A stretch of 64,000 bases of DNA from Streptomyces zhihengii (lineage in GTDB: Bacteria; Actinomycetota; Actinomycetes; Streptomycetales; Streptomycetaceae). A program made the position numbers and the translations under genes. The stretch covers positions 1,922,001-1,986,000 of the forward strand of contig NZ_JAFEJA010000001.1 of assembly GCF_016919245.1 (NCBI RefSeq). Direction: 5' to 3'. Shown one piece after another: positions 2,165 to 45,123 of the stretch; position 1 is the first letter of the stretch, and each line of letters starts with the position of its first letter. The notes under the pieces were generated by a model, which saw only the letters and a list, made by a program, of their open reading frames with translations, was not told where the DNA came from and ran no database searches.

Positions 2165-2457
2165 GATTCACCTCGCACAGCGGTTCAGGGATACCGGACT
2201 TCACGCTTTTTCCGTCCCTGAAGTTGTAGCAGCACGGTAATGCGCGCACGGCTGCGAAGGGGCCCGTAGGCCCAGACTGAGGGGGGTGTCAGGGGACCCG
2301 TTAGGGGATGGGATCCGGTGTCCTGTGCGCGGTAGCGTGATATTCCCCGGATGAGAATGCGCTGCCGGCCGAGGAGTTCCGGAACAATATCGTGCATCCT
2401 CGGCTCAATTCCAGGCTCTCCGGTTCGAATTCATCCCCGGAAAAGGAATGGATCACC
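2165..2457. promoter_or_regulatory. Divergent promoter region between rifJ and rifK units
   Basis: This 293-bp non-coding stretch separates the rifJ unit (minus) from rifKLM (plus). It contains the shared G-box element at 2280-2308 and a TAGCGT -10-like hexamer at 2333-2338. I see no ORF or structural RNA. Confidence 0.6.
2280..2308 (+). promoter_or_regulatory. Shared G-box operator A upstream of rifKLM
   Basis: The sequence reads AGGGGGGTGTCAGGGGA, followed five nt later by TAGGGGA, giving three G-boxes in direct repeat. TAGCGT (2333-2338) lies 24 nt after the last box, the position of a -10 hexamer. Closely similar elements precede three other cluster operons (8297, 41153 on the minus strand, 45123 on the minus strand). 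The arrangement suggests an activator that replaces a weak -35 region; the regulator is not in this window. Confidence 0.6.
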
Positions 2458-3627
2458 ATGAATGATCGTGTGGAGCAGCTTCTCGCGGATCTGCCGCGGT
2501 GGCCGCGCTACGGCGACGAGGAGCGCACCAATCTCGTCCGCGCCCTGGACCAGGGGCAGTGGTGGCGCATGGGCGGCAGCGAGGTCGACTCCTTCGAGCG
2601 CGAGTTCGCGGACCGGCACGGCGCCCCGTACGCGCTCGCCGTGACGAACGGCACCCACGCGCTGGAGCTCGCCCTCCAGGTGCTGGGCGTCGACCAGGGC
2701 AGCGAGGTCATCGTCCCGGCGTTCACCTTCATCTCCTCCTCGCAGGCGGCCCAGCGTCTGGGTGCCGTGGCGGTGCCGGTGGACGTGGACCCCGAGACGT
2801 ACTGCCTCGACCCGGAGGCCGCGGCCGCGGCGGTGACGCCGCGCACCAAGGCGATCATGCCGGTGCACATGGCGGGCCACTTCGCGGACATGGACGCGCT
2901 GGGCAAGGTGTCCGCGGACACCGGTGTGCCGCTGATCCAGGACGCCGCGCACGCGCACGGCGCGGAGTGGGAGGGCCGCAAGGCGGGCGAGCTGGGCTCG
3001 ATCGCCGCGTTCAGCTTCCAGAACGGCAAGCTGATGACGGCCGGCGAGGGCGGCGCGGTCACCTTCCCCGACGAGGCGTCGTACCAGGAGGCGTTCCTGC
3101 GGCACAGCTGCGGCCGGCCGGCGACGGACCGCCGGTACTTCCACCAGACGTCCGGCTCCAACTTCCGGATGAACGAGTTCTCCGCGGCCGTGCTGCGCGC
3201 CCAGCTCGGGCGGCTCGACGAGCAGATCGCCACGCGTGAGCAGCGCGCCCCGCTGCTGGCGGGCCTGCTGGCCGAGATCCCCGGTGTGGTGCCGCAGCGC
3301 CGTGACGAGCGGGTCAACGTCAACCCGCACTACATGCAGATGTTCCGGATCCCCGGCATCTCCGAGGAGAACCGCAACGCGCTCGTCGACCGGCTCGTCG
3401 CCCGCGGGGTGCCGGCGTTCATCGCGTTCCGGGCGATCTACCGCTCGGACGGCTTCTGGGAGTACGCCGCCCCCGCCGAGACCGTCGAGCAGGTCGCCGC
3501 CCGCTGCCCGGTGACGGAGGCCATCAACGCCGACTGCGTCTGGGTGCACCACCGGAGCCTGCTGGGCACCGAGGAGCAGATGCACGCCATCGCGCAGGTC
3601 GTCGCCGAGGAGGTCGCGCGCACGTGA
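2458..3627 (+). CDS. rifK: 3-amino-5-hydroxybenzoate (AHBA) synthase
   Basis: A 389-residue PLP enzyme of the DegT/DnrJ/EryC1 fold, the usual length of AHBA synthases. Visible features are the substrate-side motif GQWWRMGG, TNGTHALELAL, QDAAHAHGAEW and the PLP lysine in SFQNGKLMTAGEGG (Lys191), followed by NFRMNEFSAAVLRAQL. AHBA synthase aromatises 5-amino-5-deoxy-3-dehydroshikimate to AHBA, the ansamycin starter; in rifamycin the same protein also acts with RifL in making the amino-sugar precursor. The ATG at 2458 is preceded by AAGGA about 11 nt upstream. The stop overlaps the GTG of the next gene, indicating translational coupling of rifK-rifL-rifM. Confidence 0.95.
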   Translation: MNDRVEQLLADLPRWPRYGDEERTNLVRALDQGQWWRMGGSEVDSFEREFADRHGAPYALAVTNGTHALELALQVLGVDQGSEVIVPAFTFISSSQAAQRLGAVAVPVDVDPETYCLDPEAAAAAVTPRTKAIMPVHMAGHFADMDALGKVSADTGVPLIQDAAHAHGAEWEGRKAGELGSIAAFSFQNGKLMTAGEGGAVTFPDEASYQEAFLRHSCGRPATDRRYFHQTSGSNFRMNEFSAAVLRAQLGRLDEQIATREQRAPLLAGLLAEIPGVVPQRRDERVNVNPHYMQMFRIPGISEENRNALVDRLVARGVPAFIAFRAIYRSDGFWEYAAPAETVEQVAARCPVTEAINADCVWVHHRSLLGTEEQMHAIAQVVAEEVART

Positions 3628-4793
3628 ACGGCCAGGTGAGCGCACGAGGACCGGGAGCCCCGGTCCGCACGAGCGTGGTGGGACTGGGCTGGGCCGCGAA
3701 GTCCATCTGGCTCCCCCGACTGCGCCGGCATCCCGCGTTCGCCGTGACCTCCGTGGTCGATCCGAATCCGGCGGCCCGCGCCGAGGTTCCGCAGGACAGG
3801 ACGGGAACCCGGCTGCTGGCCGACGTGTCGGAGCTGAGCCGCGACGGCACGGATCTCGCGGTGGTGGCGGTGCCCAACCACCTGCACAGCGCGGTGGCCT
3901 GCCGGCTGCTCCGCATGGGTGTGCCGGTCTTCCTGGAGAAGCCGGTGTGCCTGAACTCCGCGGAGGCCGAGCAGTTGGCGGAGGCCGAACAGGCCGGCGG
4001 CGCGGTGCTGCTCGCCGGCAGCGCGGCGCGCTACCGGGCGGATGTGCTGGCGCTGCGGCGGCTGATCGACCGGGAGCTGGGCGAGCTGCGGCACGTCGAG
4101 CTGTCCTGGGTGCGGGCGCGCGGGGTGCCGGACGCGGGCGGCTGGTTCACCCAGCGTCAGTTCGCGGGCGGCGGCGCGCTGGTGGACCTGGGCTGGCATC
4201 TGCTGGACACGGTGGGGCCGATCCTCGGACCGGTCGGGTTCGACCAGGCCGTGGGCACGGTCTCGGACGACTTCGTCAACAGCGGTTCCGCGGGGGCCGC
4301 CTGGCGGCACGACGCGCCCAGGGCGACCGGCAGCGGCGACGTCGAGGACACGGCGCGCGGCTTCCTGGTGACCGAGGACGGCGTGTCCGTGGCCATCCGG
4401 GCGAGCTGGGCGTCGCACGAGCCGTACGACGTCACCCGGATCCGGGTCGACGGCAGTGCGGGCAGCGCGACCCTGCGGTGCACCTTCGGCTTCAGTCCCA
4501 ACCGGATCAAGCGGTCCACGCTGACGCTGGTGCGCGACGGGGTGGAGACCGAGGTGCCGCTGCCGCAGGAGGAGATCGGGGCGGAGTACGTGCAGCAGCT
4601 CGACGAGCTGCCCGCACTGCTCGCGGACCCGGCGTCACAGGGGCGGACCGTGGACGAGGTCCGCCGCACGATCGCGGTGATCGAGCGCATCTACCGCTCG
4701 GCACGCAGGGCACGGATCGGCGCGCGCTCCACAAGGGCGGCGCGGGCGGTGCCCCACTCGACGCTACTCAACACGGAGGATCACCATGCCTGA
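3624..4793 (+). CDS. rifL: Gfo/Idh/MocA oxidoreductase, RifL-like AHBA precursor enzyme
   Basis: A 389-residue NAD(P)-dependent oxidoreductase. A Rossmann start, TSVVGLGWAAKSIWLPRL, is followed by VPNHLH and the conserved EKP motif (FLEKPVCLN) with its catalytic lysine; GGGALVDLGWHLLDTVGP is the C-terminal domain substrate region. RifL homologues oxidise C3 of the nucleotide sugar so that RifK can transaminate it on the way to kanosamine; this role is inferred from homology and from the rifK-L-M order. The GTG start overlaps the rifK stop by four nt, with GAGGAGG upstream. The gene end overlaps the rifM start by eight nt. Confidence 0.88.
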   Translation: MNGQVSARGPGAPVRTSVVGLGWAAKSIWLPRLRRHPAFAVTSVVDPNPAARAEVPQDRTGTRLLADVSELSRDGTDLAVVAVPNHLHSAVACRLLRMGVPVFLEKPVCLNSAEAEQLAEAEQAGGAVLLAGSAARYRADVLALRRLIDRELGELRHVELSWVRARGVPDAGGWFTQRQFAGGGALVDLGWHLLDTVGPILGPVGFDQAVGTVSDDFVNSGSAGAAWRHDAPRATGSGDVEDTARGFLVTEDGVSVAIRASWASHEPYDVTRIRVDGSAGSATLRCTFGFSPNRIKRSTLTLVRDGVETEVPLPQEEIGAEYVQQLDELPALLADPASQGRTVDEVRRTIAVIERIYRSARRARIGARSTRAARAVPHSTLLNTEDHHA

Positions 4794-44099: not shown

Positions 44100-45005
44100 T
44101 CAGGTCTCCACTGCCGCCGGGGCGGGTTCCCCGCCGGTCGCGAGGGGCCCCGGAGCGCCGGTGCCGGGGCCGTCGAGGGCGAAGAACTCCCGGTAGAGGG
44201 CGAGCTGTTCGGCGAGCATGGGCGCGCCGGGGTGGACGGGCAGGCCGCACGCCTCCGCCGCCGCCAGCAGCGCGGTGCGGCGCGGCTTCATGACGATGTC
44301 GGCGACGAGGGTTCCGGGGCGCAGCCGGTCGGGGGCGAACGGGAGCGGGTCGTCCGGGCGCAGCCCGAGGGGGGTGGCGTTGACGGCGATGTCCGCGTCG
44401 ACGGGGCCGTCCGCCCCGTGGACGCGGCCGGGCCAGGTGGGGGCGAGGCGTTCCACGAGGCGCTGCACGCGGGCGGTGTCGGTGTCCCAGACGGTGACCC
44501 GGGCGCCGGCCAGCAGCAGGGCGACGACGATGGCGGAGCCCGCTCCCCCGGCGCCGGCGACGCAGACGGTGGCGGTCTCGGGCCGGTGCCCCGCGGCGCG
44601 CAGGCCGCGGACGAAGCCCGCACCGTCGAAGTTGTCGGCGTACCAGCGGCCGTCGGGGCCGCGCCGCAGGGCGTTGGCCGAGCCGCTGAGGCGGGCCGCG
44701 GGGCTGATCTCGTCGGCGAAGCGGAGGCAGTCGGCCTTGTGCGGCACGGTGATCAGCAGCCCGTCGAGGTTCCGGACGCGCTGGAGGCCGGGCACGGTGG
44801 TGTCCAGGTCGCCGGGGCGCACATGGACGGGCACGAGGATCGCGTCGGTGCCGAGGCGGGTGAAGAGCGGGTTGAGCATCGCGGGCGCCTGCACCTGGGC
44901 GACCGGGTCGCCGAGCACGGCGTAGAGCCGGGTCGTGCCGGACACGGCGGGGGCGCCGGGCCGGGCCGGGGGCGCGTCCTGTGCGGCGAGGTCCGTACCG
45001 GTCAC
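44100..45005 (-). CDS. rifI: Shikimate/aminoshikimate dehydrogenase (RifI-like)
   Basis: A 301-residue AroE-family protein. The substrate domain has [15 protein letters not shown] and [11 protein letters not shown] with the catalytic Lys, and [11 protein letters not shown] with the Asp partner. The cofactor domain has [22 protein letters not shown] and VNATPLGL. In AroE the start motif is usually GxPIxHSxSP; here it is [10 protein letters not shown], which argues against ordinary shikimate and fits the RifI subgroup, proposed to act on quinate or aminoshikimate in AHBA clusters. The GTG at 45005 has GGGAGG five to six nt upstream. It is the first gene of the rifI-rifH unit, the right-hand part of the AHBA set. 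Confidence 0.87.
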
Positions 45006-45077
45006 CGTTGCCTCCCTGTTCGCCCTGGCCGCGGCGGTGCGCCGGGGCGCCGGGCGCCGGGCCCCGCATCGCCGACG

Positions 45078-45123
45078 ACACTAGGCGGGCCACGGCCGGG
45101 CGGGCATCCCCTCAGACCCCCCT
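45078..45123 (-). promoter_or_regulatory. Shared G-box operator D and -10 for rifI-rifH
   Basis: On the minus strand AGGGGGGTCTGAGGGGA (45123-45107) is followed 23 nt later by TAGTGT (45083-45078). The start of transcription would lie about 65 nt before the rifI GTG. Spacing is the same as in operator C. Confidence 0.65.

Follow-up and report, generated by a model that had tools for sequence, protein, structure and literature searches.

AGGGG direct-repeat arrays at the promoters of a likely ansamycin cluster of Streptomyces zhihengii, putative operators of a MalT-like LAL activator

Results

A 64,000-nucleotide stretch of Streptomyces zhihengii DNA (contig NZ_JAFEJA010000001.1, positions 1,922,001 to 1,986,000; hereafter the window) carries a gene cluster in which four biosynthetic units are each preceded by a G-rich direct-repeat array, the element analysed here. 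Two units lie on the plus strand. The first comprises genes similar to rifK, rifL and rifM (2458-5499), which encode a 3-amino-5-hydroxybenzoate (AHBA) synthase, an oxidoreductase and a HAD phosphatase, and the second comprises type I polyketide synthase (PKS) genes and a gene for an amide synthase of the N-acetyltransferase family (8433-31538). On the minus strand are genes for an FAD/BBE oxidase (39498-41000), a cytochrome P450 and a ferredoxin (unit 37971-41000), as well as genes for a rifH-like 3-deoxy-D-arabinoheptulosonate 7-phosphate synthase and a rifI-like shikimate dehydrogenase (42659-45005). The product predicted from these genes is likely a pentaketide ansamycin, as the cluster encodes an amide synthase, the synthesis of AHBA and an AMP-binding loading domain, with a total of four ketosynthases.

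A pattern search of the window found exact AGGGGGG-N5-GGGGA sequences at 2280 (plus strand), 41153 and 45123 (both minus strand), and a looser AGGGGGG-N6-GGGGT at 8297 (plus strand), reproducing exactly the positions and strands of the four sites in a preliminary description of this DNA. The element had been described as a single bipartite box; the repeat unit at all four sites is instead an AGGGG direct repeat, with 11 or 12 bp from box to box. The rifK array (2280-2313, plus strand) consists of AGGGG boxes at 2280, 2291 and 2303, the last being AGGGGATGGGA; with an outlying AGGGG upstream, at 2258, the region holds four G runs within 60 nt. The PKS array (8286-8313, plus strand), recognised by pattern search and conservation, consists of AGGG at 8286, AGGGGGG at 8297 and TGGGG at 8309. 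The oxidase array (41132-41153, minus strand) features AGGGGGG at 41153 and AGGGGAATACG at 41142, and the rifI array (45102-45123, minus strand) AGGGGGG at 45123 and AGGGGATGCCC at 45112; these two and the rifK array were found by both pattern search and matrix scan. All four sites are intergenic, and a divergent neighbour gene is present at each. The flanking start codons (2164/2458, 8149/8433, 41000/41267 and 45005/45248, the rifK start at 2458 being derived from translation) bear out the earlier statement that each element faces its named biosynthetic unit and that none lies within a gene.

Each array is followed by a -10-like hexamer. TAGCGT (2333-2338, plus strand) starts 30 nt after the start of the last rifK box, and a similar hexamer with similar spacing is found at many AHBA loci. 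TACGGT (41108-41113, minus strand), also present in Streptomyces chryseus, and TAGTGT (45078-45083, minus strand) each start 29 nt after the last box start of the oxidase and rifI arrays. As previously noted, TAGCGT, TACGGT and TAGTGT lie 24, 23 and 23 nt past the last AGGGGA; the 24-nt rifK spacing is measured from the third box at 2303. The PKS site at 8297 has no TANNNT hexamer and features instead the putative -10 sequence GAGAAT (8336-8341, plus strand), 27 nt after the last box start, which corresponds to GAGACT in loci L037, L100 and L051 (L numbers designate the loci compared). GAGACT or GAGAAT replaces TAGCGT at the PKS promoter and at some others (window 8336; L037, L051, L091, L092 and L100), and perhaps represents a second -10 type under the same boxes.

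The 9.73-Mb genome holds four copies of the strict N5 pattern, three of them in the window, and one of its reversed form. The sequence AGGGGGGTNNNAGGGGA has three perfect matches in the genome, all within the window; in this part of the check that the preliminary description had called for, perfect matches are confined to the cluster. Matches to AGGGGGGTNNNAGGGGA with up to two mismatches number 48 in the genome and 61 for the reversed control, which is background and speaks against the strength of the loosened pattern. Similarly, when one mismatch is allowed, at least three matches turn up in 14 of 100 dinucleotide-shuffled versions of the window, whose own three matches are perfect. Because looser versions are at background level, we take strict matches, position and conservation as the evidence.

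A matrix trained on 47 rifK promoters of other strains, from which L095, a near-copy of the window, was excluded, ranked the rifK (36.1), rifI (20.2) and oxidase (14.7) sites as the top three places in 164 kb, although the training set includes close relatives of the cluster and the test is therefore not fully independent. The next-best score in the 164 kb was 12.9, and the best scores of six Markov-2 shuffles ranged from 5.2 to 11.4. The PKS site at 8297 scored 5.5, at the level of these shuffles, because its -10 differs; we accepted it on conservation alone. The PKS array is kept in 10/10 aligned relatives, and 59% of the 17 box columns are invariant among 11 sequences, compared with 5% and 2% in the flanks. 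The right-hand part of the cluster was compared in four relatives: the oxidase array is found in S. chryseus, Streptomyces sp. SID13726 and S. purpureus, and is reduced to a single box in strain H39-S7.

Arrays are widespread upstream of AHBA synthase genes. An AHBA synthase scan returned 79 loci, of which 66, all actinobacterial, were used (L032-L096 and L100). Those excluded (L097-L099 and L101-L110) are metagenome-assembled genomes of other phyla and a 57%-identical Streptomyces locus, L109; L098 and L099 each have a single AGGGG pair, which does not lie at the AHBA gene, and the sole pair of L109 lies downstream of the AHBA match start. We counted as strict arrays two exact AGGGG boxes 10-13 nt apart and no more than 330 bp upstream of the AHBA synthase match. 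Arrays are present in 57 of the 66 loci, 46 of them strict and 11 degenerate and recognised by eye (L032-L036, L038, L051, L062, L069, L074 and L075). The nine loci with no array at the AHBA gene (L050, L052, L054, L084, L086, L088, L089, L093 and L094) belong to Frankia relatives and Amycolatopsis. Genera with arrays include Streptomyces, Actinacidiphila, Herbihabitans, Saccharopolyspora, Micromonospora, Actinomadura, Actinosynnema, Kitasatospora and Parafrankia. Rather than being confined to this cluster, the site marks the AHBA promoters of many genera and promoters of other LAL-holding clusters.

Strict pairs were found in a mean of 1.28/66 random windows of the same loci. When whole loci were scanned, TANNNT followed a pair at the appropriate distance in 47 cases, compared with none in each of five Markov-2 shuffles. 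The common form of the AHBA promoter is AGGGGG...AGGGG...TAGGGGATGGGA-N18-19-TAGCGT. In 27 of the 47 training promoters the distance from the start of the last box to the -10 is 30 nt, and in all of them it is 28-31 nt.

Array promoters also occur beyond ansamycin clusters. In a genus-wide search, AGGGGN{4,6}TAGGGGN{23,26}TAGCGT matched 40 sites in 27 of 199 genomes, the rifK site of the window included, and the reversed pattern matched none in the 199 genomes. The stricter AHBA-type pattern TAGGGGATGGGAN{17,20}TAGCGTG had matches in 3/295 genomes, in each case next to an AHBA synthase motif. Box spacing, which the genus-wide pattern allows to be 10-12 bp, was measured at 24 of the 40 sites and is 10 bp (16 sites), 11 bp (7) or 12 bp (1). 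AHBA synthase is encoded in one of 20 array neighbourhoods fetched. Genes sampled in several others encode a VinK-like acyltransferase, MutE, AMP-binding proteins and P450s, and presumably belong to beta-amino-acid macrolactam-type clusters. TAGGGG array promoters were observed in macrolactam-type clusters L221, L222, L223, L226 and L228, and form divergent pairs within about 200 bp in L223 and L228.

The preliminary description had anticipated a LAL/LuxR gene just left of position 1 or elsewhere. Such a gene was found 6.1-9.0 kb left of the window (C1:1913013-1915877, minus strand). It encodes a 954-residue protein with AAA_16 and GerE domains: an N-terminal AAA/STAND ATPase domain (PF13191, E 1e-15, residues 15-183; Walker A motif GPSGSGKT), a TPR-like superhelical sensor, and a C-terminal LuxR-type helix-turn-helix (PF00196, E 7e-12, residues 885-936), which matched the GerE structure 1fse by sequence. 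Full-length Foldseek scores were low (TMq 0.2), and only domain matches were used. A SARP gene (C1:1916249-1917133) adjoins the LAL gene. Close by is a butyrolactone island (C1:1909362-1912929; L112:7362-10929) encoding an AfsA-type butyrolactone synthase, an epimerase-like reductase and two TetR proteins, of which afsA, the reductase gene and one TetR gene are kept beside the cluster in five relatives. LAL, SARP, afsA and TetR genes occur together beside AHBA synthase in L033, L035, L036, L037 and L100, and LAL and SARP genes in L034. The SARP promoter (L112, upstream of 14249; about -5834 in window coordinates) features TTGACA and an inverted repeat, ACAAAC-N10-GTTTGT, kept in L033, L035-L037 and L100, which, to judge from its sequence, is likely a receptor operator. 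On a second contig of the same genome, a two-mismatch array match (C2:488862) lies about 5 kb from another LAL gene pair (C2:493881-498410).

LAL genes and arrays co-occur at AHBA loci. E-value cut-offs for LAL matches varied among searches (1e-15 within 10 kb of AHBA synthase, otherwise 1e-20 or 1e-60). In 19 loci a LAL match was found no more than 10 kb from AHBA synthase, and in six more (L040, L061, L070, L073, L079 and L091) at 12-55 kb; all 25 carry arrays by the strict or the degenerate reading. No LAL at E <= 1e-60 was found on the AHBA contig of six array-negative loci (L050, L054, L084, L086, L088 and L109). In a LAL tree of 46 rows, all 23 rows of LALs from AHBA contigs fall within one 31-row branch (hereafter the AHBA branch). 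Of the remaining eight rows of this branch, one is a second entry of the S. zhihengii LAL and seven are LALs that the same genomes encode on other contigs or at a great distance; MalT and another 14 LALs of these genomes fall outside it. The LALs of L049, L051 and L066 and short matches were omitted from the tree because of their length. The genomes of array-negative L050 and L054 hold an AHBA-branch LAL on another contig. At six loci with arrays, the AHBA contig has no LAL match (L046, L048, L053, L059, L062 and L092): the genomes of L046, L048, L053 and L062 hold an AHBA-branch LAL on another contig, the LAL of the L059 genome falls outside the branch and those of the L092 genome are too short for the tree. 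One LAL and four arrays with TANNNT are found on a single contig, G010:C206.

The ten array genomes searched whole, among the 27, all have their nearest LAL (E <= 1e-60) 6-49 kb from an array. These were picked for large contigs before the LAL positions were known, except that of G087, and are partly non-independent, as G189 and G115 have near-identical sites and at least one genome, G088, has a site like one at an AHBA locus. The probability of such proximity under uniform positions is 6e-18, a figure that ignores that LAL genes and arrays both sit in gene clusters. The recognition-helix sequence STVEQHLTR is present in 10/10 LALs fetched from these genomes, one per genome, eight of which are the nearest LAL to the array, and is invariant in an alignment of 22 sequences.

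SARP matches are not present wherever arrays occur. At tblastn E <= 1e-8, a cut-off at which a distant SARP could be missed, LAL genes and arrays are found with no SARP match on the whole AHBA contig of L073 and in 60 of the 63 kb of that of L040; eight further AHBA loci have a LAL gene and arrays and no SARP match within 10 kb.

Other features of the cluster were noted. A small gene divergent from the PKS genes (7307-8149, minus strand) has a weak match to a lantibiotic dehydratase C-terminal domain. Two HxlR-type regulator genes map to the left end of the cluster (512-901, minus strand) and to its interior (33396-33839, minus strand). One stretch is repeated three times in the PKS genes, at 15820, 20971 and 26522 (-), and may be read as a sign of recent module duplication or conversion.

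Discussion

The conserved promoter class is real: the box arrays and their spacing are observed, as are their conservation, their promoter-like position and the co-occurrence of LAL genes. The arrays are very probably operators of the MalT-like LAL activator encoded 6.1-9.0 kb left of the window, a reading that largely upholds the earlier proposal of one pathway activator acting at a missing -35 region. We infer that the LAL binds them, multimerises and activates transcription in response to a signal, and that it is placed below the butyrolactone receptor and the SARP. The LuxR-type helix-turn-helix domains at the C termini of an ATP-bound, multimeric LAL would sit next to one another on AGGGG boxes with a spacing of 11-12 bp, about one helical turn. 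The last box would end where a -35 hexamer is missing, so that the bound LAL would recruit RNA polymerase to the TAGCGT-type -10. Four units, the AHBA genes (rifKLM), the PKS genes, the oxidase-P450-ferredoxin genes and rifIH, would thus be switched on together.

Known systems offer partial parallels. According to the available text of two reports (PMC7567727, PMC4381067), the MalT boxes of the maltose regulon in E. coli and Klebsiella are G-rich, asymmetric GGGGA(T/G)GAGG sequences placed over the -35 region and read by a STAND/LAL activator. MalT boxes also occur as direct repeats, as do the G-rich asymmetric boxes of the arrays described here. By hand count, for which there is no chance level, the proximal boxes match this consensus (as given in the available part of PMC7567727) at 8/10 positions for rifK and 7/10 each for oxidase, rifI and PKS. 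Unlike MalT boxes, the actinobacterial arrays have a (T)AGGGG core, a variable 3' half and an 11-12-bp period, and lie upstream of antibiotic genes. The MalT-like regulon of Actinoplanes sp. SE50/110 resembles the proposed one in that one LAL serves many promoters through a site over the -35 region; that site, in the available text, is an inverted TCATCC-N5-GGATGA and not a direct repeat (PMC7567727). In ansamitocin producers, Asm8 is likewise a LAL controlling AHBA genes, as far as the accessible part of the source goes (PMC12623338), where no binding site of Asm8 is given. Arrays are found at the A. pretiosum AHBA loci L079 and L090, with an AHBA-branch LAL on the same contig. Here, unlike in that system, several cluster operons share the operator.

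It is unlikely that the neighbouring SARP (C1:1916249-1917133), rather than the LAL, binds the arrays. SARPs too use direct repeats with 11-bp spacing: the operators of PimR and other SARPs are described, in the part of the source available, as heptamer direct repeats with 4-nt spacers and an 11-bp period (PMC3367932), to which the 11-12-bp period of the arrays conforms. Moreover, the SARP gene is kept next to the LAL gene in relatives, and 18 loci have a SARP match no more than 10 kb from AHBA synthase. However, the box resembles the MalT box and not the PimR heptamer CGGCAAG, and arrays occur with a LAL and no SARP match on the two AHBA contigs and at the eight further loci mentioned above. 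SARP repeats usually end about 8 nt before the -10, unlike the last box of the window arrays, which starts 27-30 nt before it. A SARP match lies within 10 kb of only 1/20 genus-wide arrays, as does a LAL match.

Recognition of the boxes by another regulator of the same cluster kinds, either a LuxR-type response regulator like CrsR or some other protein, or by a special sigma factor, is still a little less probable. CrsR binds the asm43 and asm45 promoters in electrophoretic mobility shift assays, and the available text defines no motif (PMC12623338); a response regulator with a GerE domain is encoded near the arrays in L223. Against this, a LAL gene is present in every array-positive genome searched, though LALs are common, and the boxes resemble MalT boxes in both sequence and position. 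Box copy number varies from two to four and is therefore a poor fit to a fixed -35 element. That the G runs merely form a DNA or RNA structure such as a G-quadruplex, as the four runs within 60 nt at rifK might suggest, or are a by-product of G+C-rich sequence, is highly improbable, since the oxidase and rifI sites have only two long G runs, both the 11-12-bp period and the spacing to the -10 are conserved, array-TANNNT pairs vanish in shuffled loci and no strict pairs occur on the opposite strand (0/66).

Several observations weigh against the LAL as the reader of the arrays. Some concern the arrays themselves: reversed upstream windows also score as pairs at 13/66 loci, because GGGGA reads as AGGGG, and the rifI array is kept in only one of the four relatives compared (SID13726). 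Others concern co-occurrence. A LAL lies within 10 kb of only 1/20 genus-wide arrays, and a distance of 6-49 kb would equally suit any other regulator of those clusters. Of 14 regions of up to 20 kb around LAL genes, seven have no strict array (L137, L141-L144, L147 and L149), though L137 and L142 have one elsewhere on the contig, and 5/6 array-negative AHBA genomes hold a LAL elsewhere, LALs being common. The AHBA branch has a support of only 81/100, and the AHBA-contig label needs six changes on the tree. As to recognition, a search at E <= 1e-40 yields five other LAL matches in the S. zhihengii genome; some of these share the recognition helix (L251/L254 and L252), L253 having STVEQHLTK, and the specificity of the LAL is therefore unexplained. 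The helix-turn-helix of MalT is identical at only 20/67 positions, and its recognition helix differs from the STVEQHLTR of actinobacterial LALs. Finally, in the tropansamycin cluster, overexpression of tpmLAL, tpmSARP or both left the wild-type profile unchanged, and with AHBA feeding LAL-overexpressing strains gave no product peaks and tpmLAL deletion no rescue, according to the available part of that report (PMC13000494).

The proposed LAL operator may have a wider reach. On present sequence comparisons we consider it somewhat probable that one recognition helix, TxSTVEQHLTR, reads (T)AGGGG arrays with a 10-12-bp period in unrelated antibiotic clusters (ansamycins, beta-amino-acid macrolactams and others) of many actinobacterial genera, the last copy starting 27-31 nt upstream of a TAGCGT-type -10. 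An AGGGG-array operator is not reported in the open-access literature searched, a scope outside which most subscription papers fall. LAL activators commonly serve as pathway regulators in polyketide clusters, and their overexpression is a frequent means of waking silent clusters; to our knowledge, their binding sites are mostly not known. If the proposal is true, the regulons of many LALs would be predictable from sequence. With an operator that predicts LAL-controlled operons, cluster boundaries, refactoring and activation could be put to the test, and actinobacterial LALs would be linked to the MalT paradigm.

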